Below the pieces are notes generated by a model that worked only from the letters and a program-made list of their open reading frames with translations, did no database searches and was not told where the DNA came from. Of a stretch of DNA of 34,840 nt, positions 10,981 through 14,997 are shown piece by piece. The stretch's first letter is position 1. Each line of letters begins with the position of its first letter. A program made the translations under genes and the position numbers. This stretch comes from Cytophagia bacterium CHB2 (GTDB lineage: Bacteria > Zhuqueibacterota > Zhuqueibacteria > Zhuqueibacterales > Zhuqueibacteraceae), in contig SZPB01000015.1 in NCBI GenBank assembly GCA_030263535.1, positions 1 to 34,840 on the forward strand. The letters are read 5' to 3'.

Positions 10981-11565
10981 ATGAAGTCGCCTGTAATTTT
11001 TCTGCCATTCTTGTTGATGGCGTTCAGCCTGGCAAACGGCCAGGGCCTCATCATTCGCCCGGATTTTCAGCCCACCGAACTGGAATTGCGCCGTCATGCA
11101 ATCAATGCACAGTTACATGAACAAATGGCCGTCGTGACGGTCGAGCATGAATTTTACAATCCCGGGGCAACGACCGTTGAGGGCACATTTCTTTTTCCCC
11201 TTCCAGCCAACGCGCACGTTTCGCGCTTCAGCATGAACGTCGACGGCAAGGAGATGGCCGGAGAGCTATTGAGCGCCGAGGAAGCGCGCGGCATTTACGA
11301 AAATATCGTGCGCCAACAGCTTGATCCGGCATTGCTGGAAATGGCTGATTACCGCACCTTTCGCGCGCGTATTTTCCCCATTCCTGCCAAAGCCACACGC
11401 AAGTTAACCCTGCGCTACGACGCCAGTCTCGCGCGCGAGGGCAACACGGTCACGTTTCAATATCCCATGCAGGGGAATCTGACCCATCGCCGCGTCCCCT
11501 GCCTCCTCGCCCGATTGCTCCAATTCCGTTCGAGCGCGAGCGCTCGCAGCAACCTGAAAGGGTGA
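10981..11565 (+). CDS. VIT domain protein, first part of a frameshifted VIT-VWA gene
   Basis: A signal peptide (MKSPVIFLPFLLMAFSLANG) is followed by a VIT (vault/inter-alpha-trypsin inhibitor) domain: VTVEHEFYNPGATTVEGTF, FPLPANAHVSRFSMNVDG, LLSAEEARGIYENIVRQQLD, FRARIFPIPAKATRKLTLRY. After TFQYPMQG (about 11475) the frame turns into unrelated Arg- and Ser-rich sequence and stops at 11565. The missing continuation is found at once in the -1 frame (ESDPSPRPLPPRPIAPIPFE, leading into the next entry). I therefore read 10981-13214 as one gene of about 740 codons with a one-base loss in the GGGG run at 11472-11475, or a slippage site. CGGAGAG a few bases before 10981 supports the start. The product should be exported to the periplasm or surface. 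Confidence 0.85.
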   Translation: MKSPVIFLPFLLMAFSLANGQGLIIRPDFQPTELELRRHAINAQLHEQMAVVTVEHEFYNPGATTVEGTFLFPLPANAHVSRFSMNVDGKEMAGELLSAEEARGIYENIVRQQLDPALLEMADYRTFRARIFPIPAKATRKLTLRYDASLAREGNTVTFQYPMQGNLTHRRVPCLLARLLQFRSSASARSNLKG

Positions 11566-13214
11566 AATCACAACAGAGCTTTTTGCGCATTGAAATGCAG
11601 TCGGAAACCGCATTGCGAAATATTTATTCACCTTCGCATCGCGTCGAAATCCGGCAGCCTGACGATCGCCATGCGACTGTAGAATGTGAAATGACGAATG
11701 CGCTGGACGGTCGCGATTTTCTGCTCTACTACTCACTCGATCCCAACGAAATCGCCACGACCCTGTTAACGCATCGTCCGGAAACCGGAAAACCCGGCTA
11801 TTTCATCCTGCTCATCTCGCCGCAAGTCGAGCTTAATGAGAATCAAGTTCAGGCCAAGGATTTGGTCTTGGTACTCGACACCTCGGGCAGCATGGCGGGC
11901 GAAAAAATCGAGCAGGCCAAAGCAGCCTTGCGTTATTGTTTGCAACGGCTCGGTGAACGCGACCGTTTTGGGCTGGTAACCTTCAGTTCCGAGGCCAGAG
12001 TTTTTCGGTCGACACTAGCGGGTATTACTGAACGCGAGGATGCGCTTTGGCAGGTTGATAAACTGGAAGCCACCGGCGGTACGAACATCAACGAAGCCTT
12101 GCTTGCTGCGCATAAACTTTTGCGTGACTCACCGGCGGGACGCGGCATGATCATTTTTCTTACTGATGGCTTGCCTTCCGTGGGCGTGCAAGATGAAGGG
12201 CAAATTCGGCGCAACCTCCAGCAGGCCAACAGCAACGAGGTTCGCCTGTTCTCATTCGGCGTCGGCTTCGATGTCAACACCAAATTGCTCGACGGCCTCG
12301 GCCGCGATCATCACGCTTTCGCCGATTATATTTCACCGCAAGAGAATATCGAAGAACGCGTATCGACATTCTATGATAAAGTCCGCTACCCGGTGATGCG
12401 CAACATGGAATACGAATTTCGCGGCACGGACGTAAGGCTGTTGTCTCCGCGCCAACTGCCGGATTTATTCAAAGGCGGGCAAATTATTCTGGCGGGCCGC
12501 TACCAGCAAGCGGGGCATGCCAGCTTGATTCTGCGCGGACAAGCCGGAGAGCAGCGTCAAACATTTCAATATGAATTTGATTTTCCCCGGCGCGAGCGCG
12601 AACGCGAGTTTGTGGCAAGACTGTGGGCCACGCGACGCGTCGGCGATTTGCTGGAGGACATTCGACTCAACGGCGAAAACGCAGAATTAAAAAACGAAGT
12701 GATCAGCCTGGCAAAGGAATTCCGCCTGGTCACGCCCTACACTTCATATCTCGTTCGGGAAGAGGAAACGTTAGCAGGAGATGCTGCAGCTTTGCCTGGT
12801 GTATTCCAGCAAATGGAGAGACGCTGGGCCGCAGAGCCGTCGCGGGAAATGCTCATGAAGGCCTCTTCCGGTGCAGGCGCAGTGGCAATGAGCCAATCCA
12901 TTCGTGAGATGAAGGAGGCCGAGGTTGTCGCTGCACCGAAACAGGCCAGCGTGGTTGTCGTAAAAGGGCGTGTCATGGCGCTAAATCCGGACGGCGTCTG
13001 GATCGATACGGAGTTCAAACCAGTACTCGAGACGGTTAAAATTGTCTTTGCTTCGAATGCCTACTTCACGTTTCTTCGCCTCTTTCCAGAGGCCGGGGAT
13101 TTTTGCCGTCTCGGCCAGAAAGTGATTTTTAATTGGCAAGGTAAATTCGTCGAGATCGGAGAAAAAGGCGAAAAACAAATGGATGCAACCAAATTGCGCG
13201 AGTTGATGAATTGA
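11562..13214 (+). CDS. von Willebrand factor A domain protein, second part of the VIT-VWA gene
   Basis: The frame opens upstream of the GTG at 11562 and carries the continuation of the VIT protein. The VWA domain starts at DLVLVLDTSGSMAGEKI, a complete MIDAS DxSxS motif, continues with GGTNINEALLAAHKLL and IIFLTDGLPSVGV, and ends in the ISPQENIEERVSTFYDKV stretch typical of VIT-VWA proteins. A linker and a conserved beta region (PDLFKGGQIILAGRY) follow, then LVTPYTSYLVREEE, the usual end of the family core. The last ~85 residues (from VVVVKGRVMALNPDGVW) are an extra module not recognised. The metal-binding fold suggests adhesion or protein-protein contact outside the cytoplasm. The GTG (11562-11564) overlaps the TGA of the upstream frame (GTGA), so separate coupled translation is possible, but the product would then lack a signal peptide. 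Confidence 0.85.
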   Translation: MKSQQSFLRIEMQSETALRNIYSPSHRVEIRQPDDRHATVECEMTNALDGRDFLLYYSLDPNEIATTLLTHRPETGKPGYFILLISPQVELNENQVQAKDLVLVLDTSGSMAGEKIEQAKAALRYCLQRLGERDRFGLVTFSSEARVFRSTLAGITEREDALWQVDKLEATGGTNINEALLAAHKLLRDSPAGRGMIIFLTDGLPSVGVQDEGQIRRNLQQANSNEVRLFSFGVGFDVNTKLLDGLGRDHHAFADYISPQENIEERVSTFYDKVRYPVMRNMEYEFRGTDVRLLSPRQLPDLFKGGQIILAGRYQQAGHASLILRGQAGEQRQTFQYEFDFPRREREREFVARLWATRRVGDLLEDIRLNGENAELKNEVISLAKEFRLVTPYTSYLVREEETLAGDAAALPGVFQQMERRWAAEPSREMLMKASSGAGAVAMSQSIREMKEAEVVAAPKQASVVVVKGRVMALNPDGVWIDTEFKPVLETVKIVFASNAYFTFLRLFPEAGDFCRLGQKVIFNWQGKFVEIGEKGEKQMDATKLRELMN

Positions 13215-13392: not shown

Positions 13393-13800
13393 ATGAGCCT
13401 GTGGGAAAAAATTGCAAAAGATTTGCAGCAAAGCGCCACAACATTCAGTGAAATGGCCAGTGATTTCATTAAAAGCGGCGCCGAAGTGATTCGTGAGGGT
13501 ATTGAAGTCGCTTCCGAAAAAACCGCACAAGCCACCAAGCTCGCCAAGCTCAAGTGGGAAAAGAGCATGATCCATCGTGATATTGAGAAGGCCTTTCTCG
13601 CGCTCGGCGGTCAAGCCTATGAGCTTCACGTGCAGGGAAAGCTGGCAGATTTAGCGACGGTGGCTTTCGATAAGCTCGAAGAGTTGCGCATTCTCGAAAG
13701 CAAGCTTGACGGCAAAGATCAAGAAATTGCCGATCTCCAAAATACCGCCACGGCTAGCGCCCCCAAGCAAGACACAACGGCACATTCGACCCAATCATGA
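13393..13800 (+). CDS. Small helical protein of unknown function
   Basis: I do not recognise a named family. The 135-residue product (MSLWEKIAKDLQQSATTFSE) is predicted to be almost all helix: an amphipathic N-terminal half with regular Ala and Glu, a KLAKLKWEKSMIHRDIEKAF stretch in the middle, a second helix (FDKLEELRILESKLDGKDQE) and a disordered Thr/Ser/Ala-rich tail. There is no signal peptide and no membrane segment. The reading frame is open far upstream, but AGGAG seven bases before the ATG at 13393 fixes this start. It ends 18 bases before the RuBisCO-like gene, so the two are probably co-transcribed; whether they work together is unknown. The repeated small residues recall phasin- or YtxH-like helical proteins, but the resemblance is too loose to name. 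Confidence 0.75.
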   Translation: MSLWEKIAKDLQQSATTFSEMASDFIKSGAEVIREGIEVASEKTAQATKLAKLKWEKSMIHRDIEKAFLALGGQAYELHVQGKLADLATVAFDKLEELRILESKLDGKDQEIADLQNTATASAPKQDTTAHSTQS

Positions 13801-13818
13801 AATAGACAGGAGACCAGC

Positions 13819-14997
13819 ATGAGTTACATCAACAAAGCCTATGAGCCCAAACCTACGGATGTCTTGTGCAGCTATTATCTTGAACCGGCGCCCAAAAGAA
13901 CATTAATCGAGGCCGCCGAGGAGTTATGCAAGAAAGCTTCTGTTGATGTTTTAGGTGGAGAAATCGTGAGCAAGCTGCGCGCTTCCGCATACGAAGTGCA
14001 TGAGGAGGGTACGCAGGTGGCCTTTCCTGCCGAGCTTTTTGAAGGCGGGAATATTCCGCAAATGTTGACGATCATCGCAGGCAAAATTTTTGGTTTGGAA
14101 AAAATTGCAAATTTACGTTTGCAGGATGTGCGCTTTCCGGAATGGTGGATAAAAAGTTTTCGCGGCTCTGCGTTTGGCAGCAAGATTGTCGAGAAGCATT
14201 TCGGCAATCCAGCGCGTCCGCTAGTGGCGTCACTCATCAGCCCGGAAGTCGGCCTGCCCCTCGATGCATACAAAGAAAAGGCGGAGGCCTCGTTCTTGGG
14301 CGGCTGCGACATCGTGCGTGACAGCCCGCAGATTCACAACATGTCCCTCAATCCATTTGAGAAGCGTGTCGACGCAATTTTGGCGTTGACGCGAGAGTGT
14401 TCACAAAAAACCGGCATGCCGAAAATGTATTTTCCCAACGTCAGCGGCTCCGGCGATGTTGTGTTGAGTAGAATTAACTATGTGATGAAAAAAGGCGGGC
14501 GGGGCGTGGTAATTGATTTTCAGGCGTGCGGTTTTAGTATCCTGCAAATGGTGCGCAATGAGTTCCCCGAATTGATCGTTTATGCCGATCGCACCTCGCA
14601 TGCTGCGACAGCACGAAATAAACGCCAAGGCATTTCAATGACAACGCTTGGCAAGCTGGCACGCCTCGCCGGCGCCGATCTCGTCGAAATCGGCTCTATT
14701 ACCGGCGACATGGTCGAAACGGAAGCGCATGTCGTGCAACTGCATACGAATTTATTGGCAGATTTATTCAAGACGCGCGACCCGCATCGGTTTGATCAGA
14801 ACTGGCACGGCATCGGAAATAGCCTGCCGGTAACTTCCGGCGGCCTTAAGGCAAATGACGTGCGCGAATTGCGCAATCGTTTCGGCAATCAGATCGTGCT
14901 GCAATTCAATCGCAGCATGACGGGCAAAGAACACGTCTCGAAGCGCCACATCGAGATGTTCCTGGATGAGCTTGGCCCGCTGGTGCCGCTGGTCTAA
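13819..14997 (+). CDS. RuBisCO-like protein (form IV type), catalytic lysines replaced
   Basis: 392 residues align by eye with the large RuBisCO chain: an N-terminal domain ending IAGKIFGLEKIANLRLQDVR, then a TIM-barrel part with RPLVASLISPEVGLPLDAY, FLGGCDIVRDSP, YFPNVSGSGD, YADRTSHAATARNKRQGISM, LVEIGSITGDM and LPVTSGGLKANDVREL. At the positions of spinach Lys175, Lys201 and Lys334 it has Ser141, Arg167 and Asp297. The metal ligands Asp203 and Glu204 are Ser169 and Pro170, and His294 and His327 are Asp257 and Glu290. Arg295 and the SGG phosphate loop (340-342) are kept. CO2 fixation is therefore excluded, and a carbamate-Mg enolase activity as in methionine-salvage MtnW is unlikely. The substrate is unknown. 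AGGAG eight bases before the ATG supports the start. No methionine-salvage or Calvin-cycle gene is nearby. Confidence 0.9.
   Translation: MSYINKAYEPKPTDVLCSYYLEPAPKRTLIEAAEELCKKASVDVLGGEIVSKLRASAYEVHEEGTQVAFPAELFEGGNIPQMLTIIAGKIFGLEKIANLRLQDVRFPEWWIKSFRGSAFGSKIVEKHFGNPARPLVASLISPEVGLPLDAYKEKAEASFLGGCDIVRDSPQIHNMSLNPFEKRVDAILALTRECSQKTGMPKMYFPNVSGSGDVVLSRINYVMKKGGRGVVIDFQACGFSILQMVRNEFPELIVYADRTSHAATARNKRQGISMTTLGKLARLAGADLVEIGSITGDMVETEAHVVQLHTNLLADLFKTRDPHRFDQNWHGIGNSLPVTSGGLKANDVRELRNRFGNQIVLQFNRSMTGKEHVSKRHIEMFLDELGPLVPLV

Follow-up and report, generated by a model that had tools for sequence, protein, structure and literature searches.

A RuBisCO-fold protein of the Zhuqueibacteraceae that lacks the carbamate-metal centre

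Introduction

RuBisCO is commonly seen as chemically frozen around a lysine carbamate and Mg2+. In the plant enzyme, His294 stabilises the Lys201 carbamate (PMC8920986), and Asp203 and Glu204 bind Mg2+ (PMC11189101). Form IV RuBisCO-like proteins (RLPs) are non-carboxylating members of the superfamily that have lost some RuBisCO substrate-binding residues, and those compared here (the DK-MTP-1-P enolases 2oek and 2zvi, the OiaX-like/3nwr proteins and the IV-Photo proteins 1ykw and 2qyg) also keep the carbamate lysine, together with K175, D203 and, outside two cupin fusions, E204 (spinach numbering throughout).

The two cupin fusions come from genomes of the same order as the organism studied here and carry a C-terminal Cupin_2 domain (L018, G011:C113, 1039-2616; L015, G008:C20, 1279-2895; 525-538 aa). 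They keep K175, K201 and D203, with H at E204 and R at K334. Because the MTA-isoprenoid shunt of R. rubrum and R. palustris has an RLP and a cupin at consecutive steps (PMC5893883), such a fusion may be a two-step enzyme.

True RuBisCOs have also been reported from KSB1 (Zhuqueibacterota), as form I enzymes with a Calvin cycle in one order of the phylum (PMC11683472). One survey treats any RuBisCO sequence that lacks the catalytic lysine as form IV and removes it (PMC7895386), a filter that would drop the lineage described below as well. A literature search, whose range stopped short of the core RLP reviews, returned no report of a RuBisCO homologue without K201, D203 and E204.

Here we describe a protein from the same phylum that has the RuBisCO fold and retains none of K175, K201, D203 and E204. 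Its gene lies in a 34,840-nucleotide stretch of DNA (the window) with the following features.

13393..13800, + strand: orf135, a small, probably helical protein of unassigned family, 18 bp upstream of the RuBisCO-like gene
13809..13812, + strand: GGAG, likely ribosome-binding site of the RuBisCO-like gene, 6 nt 5' of the ATG, identified by eye
13819..14997, + strand: gene for a RuBisCO-fold protein with catalytic residues replaced, 392 aa
14239..14241, + strand: S141 codon, at spinach K175 (S or A in orthologues)
14317..14328, + strand: R167-D168-S169-P170 codons, at spinach K201-D202-D203-E204 (carbamate lysine and Mg ligands lost)
14587..14601, + strand: D257-R258-T259-S260-H261 codons, at spinach H294-R295-x-x-H298 (R295 and H298 kept)
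14686..14709, + strand: E290 to D297 codons, at spinach H327 to K334 (loop 6 lysine lost)
14836..14844, + strand: S340-G341-G342 codons, at the spinach S379-G380-G381 phosphate loop (kept)
14911..14913, + strand: R365 codon, an invariant Arg at G404 in the second phosphate-binding glycine loop
15034..15062, + strand: terminator-like hairpin 3' of the RuBisCO-like gene, 13 pairs with a T-rich tail, a consensus match only

Results

An intact RuBisCO-like gene found in one bacterial family

The RuBisCO-like reading frame is intact, running from an ATG at 13819 to a stop at 14995-14997 and encoding a full-length protein of 392 aa. Both Pfam domains are found well above threshold (PF00016 at 119.7 bits, cut-off 30.1; PF02788 at 84.6 bits, cut-off 20.7). 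The best NCBIfam profile is that of type III RuBisCO (TIGR03326), which scores 263.9 bits and misses its equivalog cut-off of 497.45; the mtnW and OiaX profiles also match, weakly. By fold and sequence the protein is thus a member of the RuBisCO superfamily, yet it is no competent RuBisCO. It is the sole RuBisCO_large match in the 7-Mb assembly from which the window comes.

Orthologues are present in seven of eight genomes examined from the GTDB family, the genome lacking one being 79% complete. Identity is 99% within the species, 84-85% within the genus and 60-63% to the sister genus, and a public contig labelled KSB J3 (candidate division KSB1) carries the same gene at 99% identity. Outside the family, no orthologue was found among 82 genomes of the phylum, nor in viral contigs, plasmids or further, partly overlapping sets of 388, 388 and 386 genomes. 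Pairwise NG86 estimates of dN/dS between orthologues lie between 0.07 and 0.29, rough ratios given that most synonymous distances exceed 1, and indicate that the gene is under purifying selection. A sequencing error or pseudogene can be dismissed, as the frame is intact and the substitutions recur in independent genomes whose copies are 60-99% identical.

True RuBisCOs occur in the same family as separate genes. Two of the genomes that carry the RuBisCO-like protein (G002 and G003) also encode an intact RuBisCO (L016, G002:C1; L017, G003:C30) with every catalytic residue, only about 25-28% identical to the RuBisCO-like protein. Each adjoins a PRK-family gene, which fits the report of a Calvin cycle in one order of the phylum (PMC11683472). 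In the tree, the RuBisCO of G002 lies close to 8u66 and does not belong to the main body of form I. In three other genomes (G000, the window's own, G001 and G006) the RuBisCO-like protein occurs without any true RuBisCO, which excludes dependence on, or partnership with, such an enzyme.

The catalytic apparatus is replaced on a conserved scaffold

A MAFFT alignment that includes homologues of forms I, III and IV pairs spinach K175, K177, K201, D203 and E204 with S141, E143, R167, S169 and P170, and H294, H327 and K334 with D257, E290 and D297. The first-pass annotation had mapped seven of these positions by eye (K175, K201, K334, D203, E204, H294 and H327), and the alignment gives the same residue at each. 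It also bears out that R295 (R258) and the SGG loop (S340-G342) are kept, and adds H298 (H261) to the retained set. The earlier description, of a protein missing three catalytic lysines and two metal ligands, holds for all five positions and falls short of the full extent: K177, the T65/W66 loop, N123 and G404 are likewise altered.

The replaced positions are among the most constant of the superfamily. Across 27 comparison homologues K175, K201, D203, E204 and H294 are conserved in 100% and K334 in 96%. The replacements are themselves fixed: all five aligned full-length orthologues, down to 60% identity, have E143, R167, S169, D257, E290, D297 and R365, with position 141 varying between S and A and position 170 between P and H. 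Of the positions at which at least 85% of the 27 homologues agree, 12 are catalytic and 47 are not; 9 of the former but just 12 of the latter are changed (Fisher P = 0.0024, with a catalytic set picked from general knowledge of the spinach enzyme that takes in W66, N123 and G404). The fold has thus been kept while the catalytic apparatus was stripped. Consistent with this pattern, residues invariant in 34 aligned proteins are all kept, for example G88, D103, G116, G120, P142, G145 and D164, as well as D168, R183, N207, R282, G285 and D287.

The requirements of a carboxylase, namely the carbamylated Lys201, the Mg ligands Asp203 and Glu204, Lys175 and the loop 6 Lys334, are all absent. Judged from these residues, the protein cannot form a lysine carbamate or a D203/E204 Mg site, as the first-pass annotation had proposed. 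Its accompanying generalisation, that most form IV enzymes acting as enolases keep the carbamate lysine and the Asp/Glu ligands, agrees with our comparison, in which K175, K201 and D203 are present in every form IV protein and E204 in all except the two cupin fusions. The bisphosphate site is also incomplete, because H327 and G404 are altered and the residues supplied by the neighbouring subunit are lost.

A complete RuBisCO fold with a conserved pocket rim

An AlphaFold2 model built from a 34-sequence alignment has a pLDDT of 88.8 and a pTM of 0.90. The model predicts a complete two-domain RuBisCO fold with an eight-stranded barrel. Foldseek and VIA-align match it to RuBisCO, best to type III (3a12, Z 47.5, 1.9 A over 389 residues). 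Form IV structures are absent among the best 50 structural matches, which proves nothing alone. Strand 2 ends at R167 and strand 5 at D257, and strand 6 ends at 291, directly past E290; the model strands thus end at the aligned catalytic positions, and the register of the alignment is not in doubt.

We considered whether a lysine from elsewhere fills the active site, an outcome that the first-pass annotation had named as fatal to its reading. In the model and the orthologue alignment the pocket has no conserved lysine at its strand ends or in its loops, and the sister genus has S or T in place of the sole rim lysine, K344.

Conserved positions are concentrated at the pocket rim (37 of 48), compared with the remaining barrel (104 of 192, P = 0.005) and with the barrel bottom (25 of 48, P = 0.018), although rim conservation represents few independent changes because just two genera are known to carry the protein. 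This difference argues for a pocket that is used rather than empty.

Affinity to form III and form I RuBisCO

Form III RuBisCO (TIGR03326) is the closest described relative, sharing the fold over 389 residues, giving the best profile and standing nearest in the tree. Representatives are the Thermococcus kodakarensis enzyme (3a12/3a13) and the bacterial proteins L039 and L064, which are 31-33% identical to the RuBisCO-like protein. The two groups have in common the structural glycines, R295, H298 and SGG. In contrast to form III, the RuBisCO-like protein has replaced the three catalytic lysines, both Mg ligands, H294, H327, N123 and G404, has a C-terminus shorter by about 40 residues and sits on a stem branch of about 2 changes per site.

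Trees were built from 42 and then 37 sequences that included solved form III, YkrW-type, IV-Photo and 3nwr-type proteins and left out form II and the A. fulgidus, GOS and AMC types of form IV. A 100/100 branch puts the orthologues together with the carboxylases and, in the best tree, they stand next to a bacterial form III RuBisCO with 71-80% support. We take this neighbour to be that of Thermodesulfobium. AU tests, for which the groups were partly named after the tree was seen and in which long branches are in play, reject grouping with the mtnW-like (P 0.004), OiaX-like (P 0.0036) and IV-Photo (P 0.0002) clades. They leave unrejected a basal branching with form IV on one side and forms I/III on the other (P = 0.43), a position with all form III (0.36) and one with form I (0.26).

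The protein is therefore best described as standing with form III/I RuBisCO by profile score, tree and fold, with the basal position at AU P = 0.43, and an odd form IV protein is not the best description of it. The form IV framing of the first-pass annotation accordingly needs changing. Membership of a known form IV clade, which would have told against the annotation's reading, is rejected for the three clades tested.

Gene context differs between the two genera

In the window's genus the gene order is rmlA, a VIT/VWA gene, orf135 and the RuBisCO-like gene. orf135 is kept at this place within the genus and is absent from the sister genus, where the RuBisCO-like gene has different neighbours. 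No pathway can be read from gene context because the settings differ between the two genera, and the search for gene neighbours that the first-pass annotation had suggested produced no partner conserved across them.

Some of these neighbours have features of their own. The VIT/VWA gene of the window is split into overlapping ORFs (10981-11565 and 11562-13214) by a frameshift or sequencing error; in two genomes of the same genus it is one ORF of 745-747 aa. In the sister genus the gene directly after the RuBisCO-like gene is bAvd-like or has an Lcl_C domain. A nearby ORF in L024 reads by eye like a reverse transcriptase, and this neighbourhood (L023:8769-9323, L024:7425-9278 and L024:5010-6533) looks like a diversity-generating retroelement.

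Known RuBisCO-linked pathways were also sought in the family. A match to mtnA is present in all six genomes searched; no mtnB was found above cut-off in the family genomes searched, which removes methionine salvage via mtnB, and no AMP phosphorylase above cut-off in any of the six, which removes the form III AMP pathway. The single PRK-family match in the window's genome, a 215-aa frame, looks on our reading like a uridine kinase, which would speak against a Calvin cycle there.

Discussion

The reading to which we incline, if by no great degree, is that this is a repurposed RuBisCO-fold protein whose pocket would work independently of CO2 and metal, contain an Arg167/Asp257 pair and bind an anionic, probably phosphorylated, metabolite. 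As H294 stabilises the K201 carbamate in plant RuBisCO, K201R and H294D make sense as a coupled change. By homology, Arg167 (at Lys201) and Asp257 (at His294) would form a fixed charge pair or salt bridge filling the former CO2/Mg site, and the pocket would then need neither CO2 activation nor a metal. An anionic, probably phosphorylated small molecule could be held by Arg258 (R295), His261 (H298), the Ser340-Gly-Gly loop and the new Arg365; binding of a phosphorylated substrate, as the first-pass annotation envisaged, is plausible from these residues. Either acid/base chemistry by Asp257, Glu290, Asp297 and His261 or a metabolite-binding role might follow. RuBP carboxylation and the metal-dependent enolase or isomerase reactions of form IV are very unlikely. 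A metal- and CO2-independent anion pocket is favoured because of the Arg/Asp swap, the partly kept anion-binding set, the new Arg365 and the conserved rim.

The chief rival is that the protein is a pure pseudoenzyme, a RuBisCO-fold dimer or oligomer acting as a scaffold or regulatory partner with no ligand, in which conservation at the barrel mouth reflects folding or an interface. Such a protein could well have lost every catalytic lysine and metal ligand and the neighbour-subunit active-site loop (T65/W66, N123) and would not need conserved metabolic gene neighbours; but its pocket rim would hardly be expected to be more conserved than either the remaining barrel or the bottom, nor its phosphate-binding R295, H298 and SGG to be kept, and as a partner of true RuBisCO it would be idle in the three genomes that have none. 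We regard this explanation as rather unlikely.

A new metal site, formed by Asp257, Glu290 and Asp297 of strands 5 and 6 and loop 6 on the opposite side of the barrel mouth and taking the place of the carbamate centre, strikes us as improbable. The three acids are invariant where RuBisCO has His, His and Lys, the strand ends of the model place 257 and 290 at the mouth and His261 is near in sequence, but the invariant Arg167 and Arg258 would be close and disfavour a cation. A much-diverged form IV protein, whether intact or decaying, from methionine salvage, sugar-acid catabolism or the MTA shunt would draw on the presence of mtnA, the weak mtnW and OiaX profile matches and the unrejected placement at the split between the whole of form IV and the whole of forms I/III. 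Those form IV reactions use a carbamate-bound metal, however, and with the mtnW-like, OiaX-like and IV-Photo groupings rejected, no mtnB above cut-off, and intact frames and purifying selection opposing decay, we give this origin hardly any credence.

A rebuilt pocket conserved by selection suggests that, in place of carboxylation, the RuBisCO-like protein probably does a different job. It is possible, and we advance it tentatively, that a RuBisCO-lineage protein outside the tested form IV clades, with a fixed Arg/Asp pair in place of the carbamate-metal centre and a pocket that now serves metabolite sensing or a new reaction needing neither CO2 nor metal, constitutes a new functional branch of the superfamily. 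For KSB1 genomes, a RuBisCO domain match alone is an unsafe basis for calling CO2 fixation, as the only such match in the window's genome is this gene. If the reading is right, a conserved RuBisCO-fold protein without the carbamate-metal centre would show that the scaffold can enter metal-free function, and the protein offers a natural case for separating the structural from the purely catalytic parts of the fold.
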